Positions 15,419 to 59,862 of a stretch of DNA of 64,000 nucleotides are shown here, piece after piece. This DNA is from Modicisalibacter coralii (GTDB taxonomy: Bacteria > Pseudomonadota > Gammaproteobacteria > Pseudomonadales > Halomonadaceae), in the NCBI RefSeq assembly GCF_004117855.1, contig NZ_QWBW01000007.1, forward strand, positions 186,517 through 250,516, read 5' to 3'. The notes beneath the pieces were generated by a model. That model had not been told where the DNA came from, did not search any database, and saw only the letters and a list, made by a program, of their open reading frames with translations. The position numbers were made by a program, and so were the translations under genes. Each line of letters opens with the position of its first letter. The first letter of the stretch is position 1.

Positions 15419-15598
15419 ATGACATACAACGAGTTCGTCAGATGGTTGAAGAAACGCGGCGTTGAGGTCACCACCGGCAAAGGACGGCACAGCATGAAGG
15501 CGACTCACAACGGAAAGACGGTCCCGCTCCCCTACCACGGCGCCAAGGAAATCGGCGAGGGAGTCAGGAAACGGATCATCAAGCAACTGGGCCTCTAA
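15419..15598 (+). CDS. hicA: HicA-family mRNA interferase toxin
   Basis: This encodes 59 residues starting MTYNEFVRWLKKRGVEV after a GAGGAGG ribosome site. The dsRBD-like HicA fold is recognised by GKGRHSMK, with the catalytic His at residue 24, and the ending KEIGEGVRKRIIKQLGL. HicA cuts mRNA during translation. It is encoded against the direction of the surrounding right operon, next to hicB, so it is a self-contained insert in the prophage that could stabilise the lysogen or act against other phages. Confidence 0.93.
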   Translation: MTYNEFVRWLKKRGVEVTTGKGRHSMKATHNGKTVPLPYHGAKEIGEGVRKRIIKQLGL

Positions 15599-15670
15599 GG
15601 AGGCCCCATCACCGACGAACCCGGCATGCCTCCGGTCGACAACAACCCCGTGAACGCAAGAGGTGTTCGC

Positions 15671-42674: not shown

Positions 42675-43322
42675 TTGATCAGGGTTCTAGTCGCAGACGA
42701 CCACCACCTCGTTCGCACCAGCATCGCGCGCATGCTGGACGCGGAGGAAGGCTTGCGCGTCGTCGGCGAAGCCGCCGACGGCGAAGAAGCCATCAGCCAG
42801 GCGCGAAACACCCGTCCCGATCTCGTCCTCATGGACATCCGCATGCCCGGGATCGGTGGCCTGGAGGCGACCCGCAAGATCGCCCGGGGCATGTCCGACA
42901 TCAAGGTGATCGTACTCACTGCCTACCTCGAGGACACCTTCGCCCAGCGTCTTCTCGACGCCGGGGCCAGCGGTTTCATCAGCAAGGGCACCGAGCTCGA
43001 CGAGATGGTCAGGGCGATTCATTGCGTCCATGCCGGCCAGCGTTACATCAGTCCCGACATCGCCCAGCGACTGGTTCTGGCGAAGCTCGACAGTCAGGAA
43101 AACCCCTTCGATCAACTCTCCAGCCGCGAGTTGCAGGTGGCGATGATGATCGTCAACTGCCACAAGGTCAGCGAAATCTCGGACAGCCTGTTTCTCAGTC
43201 CCAAGACGGTGAATACCTACCGCTATCGCATCTTCGAGAAGCTCGGTGTCCAGTCGGACGTCGAGCTGACTCACCTGGGACTGCGCTTCGGCCTGATCGA
43301 GGACTATCCGGCGCCGGGCTGA
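42675..43322 (+). CDS. uvrY: Response regulator UvrY/GacA
   Basis: This encodes 215 residues. The receiver domain has Asp54 in LVLMDIRMPG, and the LuxR-type output domain starts at LSSRELQVAMMIVNCHKVSE. The start codon is TTG at 42675 (TTG ATC AGG GTT, matching the usual MIRV), after AGGAG. It lies before uvrC, the conserved gammaproteobacterial order. GacA-type regulators drive Rsm/Csr small RNAs; a fitting RNA gene with an upstream box is at 59632-59862 in this window. Confidence 0.95.
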   Translation: MIRVLVADDHHLVRTSIARMLDAEEGLRVVGEAADGEEAISQARNTRPDLVLMDIRMPGIGGLEATRKIARGMSDIKVIVLTAYLEDTFAQRLLDAGASGFISKGTELDEMVRAIHCVHAGQRYISPDIAQRLVLAKLDSQENPFDQLSSRELQVAMMIVNCHKVSEISDSLFLSPKTVNTYRYRIFEKLGVQSDVELTHLGLRFGLIEDYPAPG

Positions 43323-43389: not shown

Positions 43390-45204
43390 ATGAGTTTCGA
43401 CGCCAAGCACTTTCTCAAGACGGTCAGCGAAGCGCCGGGCGTCTATCGGATGCTCGATGCCGAGGAGAACATTCTCTACGTCGGCAAGGCCAAGCGGCTC
43501 AAGGCCCGTCTGGCCAGCTACTTCCGCGGCGCGCTCAATGCCAAGACCCAGGCGCTGGTCGCGCGGATCGCCGATATCCAGGTCACCATCACACGCAGCG
43601 AGACCGAGGCGCTGCTGCTCGAGCAGACGCTGATCAAGGAGCAGCGCCCGCCCTACAACATCCTGCTGCGCGACGACAAGTCATACCCCTACGTCTTCGC
43701 CAGCGACCGCCACCCCTACCCCGCCCTGGAGTTCAAGCGGGTGCGCCACAAGCGCAACGACGGCCGCTATCTCGGGCCTTTCCCGAGTTCCGTCGCGGTC
43801 CGCGAGAGCCTGGCGCTGATGCAGAAGATCTTTCGCATCCGCAACTGCGAGGACAGCGTCTTCGCTCACCGCACGCGCCCCTGCCTGCAGTACCAGATCA
43901 ATCGCTGCAGTGCCCCCTGCGTCGATTACATCAGCGAGGCCGAGTACCGCCGCGACCTGGAGCACGCCGTGCTGTGTCTCGAAGGCAAGAGCGAGCAGGT
44001 CACCGCGCAGTTGACCGCCGCCATGGAGGCGGCGAGCCGTGCGTTGAACTTCGAGGAAGCGGCACGCCTGCGCGACCAGATCCAGCAGCTGCGCCGCCTG
44101 CAGGAGCGCCAGATCGTCGATACCGGCAGCGGCGAGGCCGACGTCTTCGCTCTCGCCCAGCGACCGGGCGGCCTGTGCATCAGTCTGCTCACCGTGCGCC
44201 AGGGGCGGGTACTGGGAGCCCGTCACTTCGCCCCCGACAATGGCCTCGACCTCGGCGAGGCCGAGCTGCTCGGCGAATTCGTCAGCCAGTACTATCTCGG
44301 TCAGGAACGCGAGTTGCCCCAGGAGGTGCTGACCAGTCATGCGCTGCCCGATGTCGCTCTTTTGCAGTCGGCGCTCGCCGAGAAGGCCGGCCGACGGTTG
44401 CGCATCGCCCATCAGGTGCGCGGTCATCGCGCCCAGTGGCTGCAGCTGGCCCGCACCAACGCCGAACAGCACCTGGCCACCGAGCTGGCCAATCGCAGCC
44501 AGTTGTCGCGGCGCTTCGAGTCGTTGCAGGAAGCCCTGGCCATGGACGCACCGCCCGAGCGCATCGAGTGTTTCGACATCAGTCACAGCCATGGCGAGGC
44601 GACCGTCGCCTCCTGCGTGGTCTTCGATCACGACGGTCCGGTGAAATCGGACTACCGCCGCTTCAACATCGAGGGCGTGGCCGCCGGCGACGACTACGCG
44701 GCGATGCGCCAGGCCCTGGAGCGGCGCTTCAAGCGTCTGCAGAAAGGCGAGGGCAAATGCCCCGACATCCTGCTCGTCGATGGCGGCAAGGGCCAGCTCA
44801 ACATGGCCCGCGAGGTCTTCGAGTCGCTCGACGTGGCCGGCGTGCGCCTGATCGGTGTCGCCAAGGGCACCACCCGCAAGCCGGGCCTCGAGACGCTGTT
44901 CCTCGAAACGGTCGATCGCAGCCTGACCCTCGAGGGCAGCTCGCCGGCCCTGCACCTGATCCAGCACGTGCGCGACGAGGCGCACCGCTTCGCCATCACC
45001 GGCCACCGCCAGCGTCGCGACAAGGCGCGTCGCACCTCGACGCTGCAGGACATCCCGGGCGTCGGCCCCAAGCGCCGCCGCGAACTGCTGCGCTTCTTCG
45101 GCGGCTTGCAGGGGGTGCGCCGCGCCACCCGCGAGGAACTCGCTCGCGTGCCCGGCATCAGCGCCAGCCTGGCGGCGTCGATCCATCAGGCGCTGCATGG
45201 ATGA
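43390..45204 (+). CDS. uvrC: Excinuclease ABC subunit C
   Basis: This encodes 604 residues. The GIY-YIG domain ([18 protein letters not shown]) at 16-33 makes the 3' cut. A UVR domain is at about 200-235, the RNase H-like endonuclease ([11 protein letters not shown] at about 395) makes the 5' cut, and a helix-hairpin-helix pair ([18 protein letters not shown], then [13 protein letters not shown]) ends the protein. It acts with UvrAB in nucleotide excision repair. It follows uvrY and precedes pgsA. Confidence 0.97.
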
Positions 45205-59631: not shown

Positions 59632-59768
59632 AAAAAAGCCCGGCCTCAAGGGCCGGGCTGCGTAGCGCTATGCTCCTTGCTGCTCACCCGTGAGCAATCC
59701 GGCTCACGCCTCCTTGGTGCATCGGGCATTCCCTGCCCGGGGTCCTTCACGGGTCTTCCCTGACCACT
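59632..59768 (-). ncRNA. RsmY/RsmZ/CsrB-type small RNA
   Basis: A minus-strand transcript of about 137 bases runs from a TATACT -10 box (59780-59775) to a strong terminator (AGCCCGGCC/GGCCGGGCT then TTTTTT). It carries six GGA motifs, several in hairpin loops: GGTC-AGGGAA-GACC (59765-59752), GGGC-AGGGAAT-GCCC, GAGC-CGGATT-GCTC and AGCAAGGAGC. This is the design of RNAs that sequester RsmA/CsrA. The GacA homologue UvrY is also encoded in this window. No coding frame on either strand fits. Confidence 0.82.
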
Positions 59769-59844
59769 GAGAACAGTATAGCGAGGCATTTCGCCAGGTA
59801 ATTAACTCAAGTTAGAAACCCGGGTAAGCGATCGCCCAAGACGA

Positions 59845-59862
59845 GGTAAGAGATAACCTACA
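59845..59862 (-). promoter_or_regulatory. GacA-type upstream activating box
   Basis: On the minus strand TGTAGG-N6-CTTACC matches the GacA box TGTAAG-N6-CTTACA with one mismatch per arm. It lies about 85 bases upstream of the predicted start of the small RNA, a fitting place for activation. Confidence 0.7.

Follow-up and report, generated by a model that had tools for sequence, protein, structure and literature searches.

In the 64-kb window (the whole stretch of 64,000 nucleotides that was analysed), a predicted gene for an RNA of the CsrA-sponge kind lies on the minus strand at 59768-59632. The RNA is 137 nt long, its start being estimated from the -10 element to within a few bases. The gene is intergenic. 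On one side, 150 bp away, is dusA (61076-59919, minus, the same strand as the RNA; DusA by NCBIfam), and on the other side is a stretch without a recognised gene. The -10 element, TATACT, was read directly at 59780-59775 (minus); no sigma-70-type promoter with a -35 element was found on the minus strand at the locus. The RNA ends in an intrinsic terminator (59659-59637, minus) of nine pairs, eight of them G-C, followed by a T run, with pair probabilities of 0.87-1.0. It carries six GGA motifs (minus strand, first G at 59759, 59745, 59732, 59713, 59700 and 59676), five of which are ANGGA. Upstream is a distal GacA-like box, TGTAGG-TTATCT-CTTACC (59862-59845, minus), which matches 9 of 10 scored positions. 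The -10 element, the six GGA within 137 nt, the terminator and the upstream TGTAGG-N6-CTTACC had been reported in the initial annotation, and all were found in place when read directly and measured. That annotation lacked a second conserved promoter element and the fact that this RNA is one of several copies.

We compared the RNA with 5000 mononucleotide shuffles of itself. At least six GGA occurred in 17% of the shuffles, so that the motif count is unremarkable by itself. At least five ANGGA were found in 0.08% of the shuffles, and at least three hairpins with GGA in the loop in 3.9%. Within the window, at least five ANGGA per 137 nt occur at two places, of which only the RNA locus adds three hairpins. 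The other cluster, at 15439-15646 on the plus strand, has six ANGGA and one GGA-loop hairpin.

The initial annotation had assigned at least three GGA motifs to stable hairpin loops. Three such hairpins can indeed be formed, but stability is firm only for the middle one and for the terminator. Hairpin 2, CGGGCA-GGGAA-TGCCCG (59739-59723, minus), has pair probabilities of 0.93-0.97. In contrast, in the ensemble of the full-length RNA, hairpin 1, GGTC-AGGGAA-GACC (59765-59752, minus), has a pair probability of only about 0.09, and hairpin 3, CGTGAGC-CGGATT-GCTCACG (59708-59689, minus), about 0.26 in the window copy. In the predicted fold, competing long-range pairing makes hairpins 1 and 3 less probable, and the three-hairpin fold of the window copy lies 9.3 kcal/mol above the minimum of the full-length ensemble. 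As modelled, the fold of this copy would disfavour hairpins 1 and 3, and this counts against the sponge reading. The overall stability of the RNA is ordinary (z -1.52; 13 of 200 shuffles fold equally well).

A covariance search of the whole window with Rfam 15, the check proposed in the initial annotation, gave five tRNA matches only at gathering score, and no RsmY, PrrB_RsmZ, CsrB or CsrC. At the locus itself, seven weak matches were obtained up to an E-value of 10, none of them to RsmY, RsmZ, CsrB or CsrC. The designation as an RsmY/Z-CsrB-type RNA gene can thus be kept for the kind of RNA and not for membership of those Rfam families. The best of the weak matches, SorX (E 0.0017, 24.1 bits, gathering score 46.6), was rejected, as it rests largely on the terminator.

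Relatives of the RNA were collected by blastn. Of 38 relatives' genomes, 7 gave a match, that of M. coralii itself included, and all 7 are from one genus. The matches in G010 (82% identity over 135 nt) and G001 (74%) support the RNA family independently of the model described next. Three matches (L015, L016 and L017) covered the terminator only and were dropped before model building, and L007 was omitted because its RNA sequence is identical to that of L006. A covariance model, R1, was built from the window RNA and 12 relatives. The window RNA has the two GGA-loop helices of the family and a score above 40 bits; its 116 bits at 59772-59631 follow by construction, since it is one of the 13 model sequences, and the next match on the same strand is below 12 bits. 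With an E-value of at most 1e-6, R1 detects the RNA in 106 of 201 genomes of Halomonadaceae (hand count, including the M. coralii genome and the model members; only 15 candidates scored per genome). Using the same threshold, no match was obtained in 92 genomes from other families of the order, the best score being 30.9 bits. At E-values of up to 0.01, 24 of 95 genomes in the order scan match R1, and the corresponding tally of 145 of 201 family genomes was set aside because chance matches reached 30.9 bits in that scan. Copies were therefore counted at E-values of at most 1e-6 or at 40 bits. In searches that covered more than 40 genomes, about 15 to 33 candidates were scored in each.

The fold of the family is supported by covariation. 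In an alignment of 98 distinct copies fitted to R1, which favours the score, 18 of 20 model pairs in three supported helices show two-sided compensatory changes. Two of the helices hold GGA in or at their loops: helix 1, corresponding to hairpin 2 of the window RNA, with two-sided changes in 4 of 4 pairs, and helix 2, corresponding to hairpin 3, with such changes in 7 of 7. The third helix is the terminator. Cells with two-sided changes numbered 214, as compared to 41 in shuffles, and 97.2% of the cells were paired as compared to 87.1% after column shuffling; sliding the partner, which destroyed the signal, left no more than 49.4% paired. A free MAFFT alignment of the 13 RNAs already showed six pairs with two-sided changes. 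In 97 copies, GGA has a median count of 7 and ANGGA of 5, against shuffle means of 4.4 and 1.1.

These counts bear on whether the RNA could be an ordinary trans-acting small RNA that works mainly by base pairing with mRNAs, its GGA motifs being incidental. Its intergenic position, its terminator and its usual size would suit such an RNA, and SorX, the weak match noted above, is a base-pairing RNA, although that match is largely terminator-based. However, ANGGA is about five times as frequent as in shuffles, it is placed in conserved hairpin loops, and csrA genes adjoin some of the relatives. We consider this explanation very improbable.

A further question is whether the locus is an independent RNA gene at all. 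An open reading frame of 47 amino acids (59789-59646) overlaps the RNA, which lies 150 bp after dusA on the same strand, and among the copies the longest frame that begins with ATG measures 25 codons in the median, as compared to 17 in mononucleotide shuffles; the locus could accordingly be read as a small-protein gene or as a 3′ element of dusA. Against this, the 47-residue frame has no Pfam match, and the lengths of 101 RNA copies are evenly spread over the three frames (30, 33 and 38). The copies sit in many unrelated neighbourhoods, with conserved promoters of their own. Some others are found a few kb from dusA, though on its opposite side or at a greater distance, which does not support a conserved position beside this gene. 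A protein gene or a dusA element is thus, in our judgement, hardly credible, and we retain an independent sponge RNA gene as the probable reading.

The number of copies varies widely within the genus. In 14 genomes, copies scoring at least 40 bits numbered 17, 13, 13, 7, 7, 4, 4, 3, 1, 1, 1, 0, 0 and 0, for a total of 71. For this count, 150 candidates were scored in each genome, and matches that overlapped were merged by hand. The three genomes without a copy at 40 bits (G006, G011 and G013) nevertheless encode UvrY. The M. coralii genome has four copies at this threshold, and four more were recognised by eye (the C35 repeat RNA, C21c, C28 and C29); C28 and C29, at 21.3 and 19.3 bits, lie under the background of the order scan and were judged by eye only. 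This genome therefore holds at least four such RNAs and probably about eight. As a consequence of this multiplicity, loss of the window RNA may be masked by the others.

Several arrangements were observed among the copies. The C35 repeat RNA of M. coralii (C35:29224-29650, minus; L139, and L052 1501-1657 plus upstream) is a 425-nt RNA of alternating hairpins with 31 GGA and 16 ANGGA, and upstream of it are TGTAAG and a TAAC-N4-GTTA palindrome; its terminator is poorly defined. In the same genome, a stretch of 2.2 kb (C21:40724-42947; L138) contains three sponge-like RNAs, and close to the trio Rfam gives a match to a manganese riboswitch (L053 1925-2099, 47.4 bits). In G010, four tandem copies lie within 3.1 kb (C30:5245-8341; L153/L103). 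In another genus, a sponge copy is preceded at about 0.45 kb by a guanidine-II riboswitch match (L026 1009-1058; 34 bits, gathering score 32).

The promoter region was then considered across the copies. In the window, the distal box starts at -90 from the model start. A proximal half-box, CTTGGG-CGATCG-CTTACC (59840-59823, minus; 7/10), lies 22 bp from it, and a perfect palindrome, TAACTTGAGTTA (TAAC-N4-GTTA; 59814-59803, minus), is centred at about -41 from the predicted start. By itself a GacA-like box says little, as ten places in the window (both strands, locus included) score at least 9/10. For the counts across copies, 98 of 101 rows were used after two duplicates and one copy overlapping a longer RNA were set aside, and 97 of the promoters were distinct. 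In these, a box of at least 9/10 is present in 50 and absent from 47; 34 of the good boxes start at -71 to -68 and 16 at -93 to -88, and the distal box of the window sits where relatives carry perfect GacA boxes. CYTAC between -60 and -48 was found in 50 of the 97 promoters (shuffled mean 1.55, maximum 6). The palindrome, at 7/8 or better, is present in 66 of 97, with 62 starting at -46 to -40, and box and palindrome occur together in 38 of 97. As the copies are related, these counts are not independent events. In the promoters chosen from the genus (74 of 75, G005 C24:15830 being left out), a box of at least 9/10 was present in 34 (shuffled mean 0.6, maximum 3), and a palindrome of at least 7/8 at -48 to -40 in 44 (shuffled mean 0.28, maximum 3 in 500 shuffles). 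A loose -10 pattern was found close to the model start in only 35 of the 97 copies; either the start positions differ among the copies or the start of the model is ill suited as a reference point.

The palindrome was also evaluated as a genome-wide marker of sponge genes and was discarded as not specific enough, with 104 sites against 86 for the reversed pattern in 14 genomes. In the M. coralii genome, 11 sites compare with 2 of the reversed pattern, while in 6 of the 14 genomes the sites were fewer than in the control. Seven other sites of the M. coralii genome were read. A short RNA with GGA motifs may follow the one on C43, and no clear sponge was apparent at the remaining six. The palindrome also occurs there upstream of a protein gene (C18:284495, L146), the leader of which contains a GGGCAGGAGTGCCC hairpin, a possible CsrA site. 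TTAAC-N4-GTTAA has what we take to be the layout of CRP/FNR superfamily sites, and on account of this layout a CRP/FNR-type protein is a candidate for the second activator. The copies L010, L013 and L095 share a neighbourhood, in which L010 and L013 encode, as judged by eye, a CRP/FNR-like protein beside the copy.

The partners expected of a sponge RNA are encoded in the genome. CsrA is specified by a single gene (93.5 bits), and its product is identical to the solved CsrA 1y00 at 50 of 52 residues. All 14 genomes of the genus have CsrA, with one to three genes each. The initial annotation had placed UvrY at 42675, and the gene at 42675-43322 (plus strand) indeed scores above the NCBIfam cut-off (NF007018, 292.3 bits, cut-off 280). 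It is followed by uvrC (43390-45204; TIGR00194, 613.7 bits) and lies within the window, about 17 kb from the RNA gene; its product is the proposed activator. The sensor domain of E. coli BarA (PF09984) is absent from the genome. In G001, G005 and G010, which are the three genomes with extra csrA, an extra csrA gene is divergent from an RNA copy at a distance of 155-159 bp, and in G009 an RNA copy is divergent from uvrY at about 0.4 kb. The extra csrA genes at L003, L150 and L151, which form a tandem pair in L003 and in L151, are divergent from a sponge RNA. For some of the extra CsrA proteins, identity to the main CsrA is only 70-79% in the part that could be aligned.

Across the family, the RNA is present in 3 of 20 genomes without a strong UvrY match, as compared to 103 of 181 others (Fisher p 5.8e-4; related and thus not independent genomes, hand count, a strong match being absent when the best E-value was above 1e-50). 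The three genomes that have the RNA without a strong UvrY match count against the favoured reading. The RNA might bind CsrA and yet be transcribed mainly under the control of the protein that recognises the palindrome, with a weak role of UvrY or none. Indeed, the palindrome is commoner than a good GacA box (66 as compared to 50 of the 97 copies), most other copies of the M. coralii genome have the palindrome without a good box, and the window copy itself combines a perfect palindrome with imperfect boxes. The distal box nonetheless lies exactly where relatives have perfect GacA boxes, and UvrY and the RNA go together across the family. We regard control mainly through the palindrome as unlikely, and keep UvrY as the proposed activator.

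A promoter requiring two keys could combine these observations. In it, GacA boxes centred near -61 and -82 would be joined by a second activator bound to TAAC-N4-GTTA at -41, the class II position, the elements being spaced by about two helical turns. In some lineages this module may have been multiplied to up to 17 sponge genes with extra csrA adjoining, in such a way that CsrA would be set by gene dosage together with the Gac signal. We put this proposal forward only tentatively and hold it to be possible rather than probable.

Among the closest known systems are RsmY, RsmX and RsmZ of Pseudomonas (RF00195, RF00166; clan CL00106), which resemble the window RNA in size, in GGA placed in hairpin loops, in the terminator and in the upstream GacA box. 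Such a box upstream of the Pseudomonas Rsm RNAs is described in the available part of PMC2375449. The Pseudomonas Rsm RNAs and the window family both have 4-10 GGA, partly in hairpin loops. The RsmY model gave 35 bits (E 8e-5) with a relative of the window RNA in L003 and 25 bits in L024, and the RsmZ model 24 bits with a relative in L026, all under the gathering scores of 57 and 44; conversely, of seven RsmZ loci one scored 26 bits with R1. Unlike the Pseudomonas Rsm RNAs, the window family has a different order of hairpins and a conserved GCCCGGCC terminator. Moreover, none of seven RsmZ promoters from another family of the order had the palindrome near -44, and none had a box scoring 9 within 130 bp.

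With CsrB and CsrC of enterobacteria, the window RNA has in common the proposal of CsrA titration under UvrY. It differs in being a 137-nt RNA with six GGA and without a CsrB or CsrC match. The CsrB plan is resembled by the C35 RNA of M. coralii, with its 31 GGA in 425 nt. As for the number of copies, a table in PMC7366521, in the part of that paper available, lists nine rsm RNAs in Azotobacter vinelandii, RsmZ1-7 and RsmY1-2. Modicisalibacter, with up to 17 copies at 40 bits, is alike in having many sponge copies per genome, but its copies are predictions and belong to another RNA family, whereas those of A. vinelandii come from published work. In Halomonas anticariensis, which belongs to the same bacterial family as the organism of the window, the Gac system controls quorum sensing, according to the accessible part of PMC4187203, and the small RNA of its GacS/GacA system is tabulated as 'Unknown' in PMC7366521. 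The RNA family of the window gene is a candidate for this missing RNA. For H. hydrothermalis, CsrA binding has been modelled, and sponge RNAs are left to future models in the part of PMC12889724 that was available. The literature searched, in which subscription papers were mostly out of reach, held no description of Csr/Rsm RNAs in Halomonadaceae.

Overall, the locus is very probably a Csr/Rsm-type sponge gene, coding for a small RNA that stands by itself and ends at a terminator. We favour this reading because the GGA-loop hairpins are conserved with compensatory changes, the GacA boxes stand at fixed distances, and csrA or uvrY adjoin relatives; it is also favoured because the genome encodes UvrY and one CsrA nearly identical to a solved CsrA. 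According to this reading, phosphorylated UvrY (GacA) would bind one or both of the upstream boxes and, with whatever protein binds TAAC-N4-GTTA near -41, would turn on a promoter having a -10 element and no recognisable -35. The transcript would offer six GGA sites, some of them in hairpin loops, and could bind several CsrA dimers. Titration of CsrA by the RNA would then free the mRNAs that CsrA represses.

Gac-controlled CsrA sponges are well known as a kind, and no description of this RNA family turned up in the literature searched. Its unusual features are the large number of copies in some genomes and the palindrome as a second element of the promoter. Halomonadaceae are used in industrial biotechnology, and Gac has been studied in one Halomonas species; the locus and its relatives provide testable candidates for the downstream Gac RNA in this family. 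The copy number and the palindrome raise the questions of why there are so many sponges and of what second signal feeds the Csr system.
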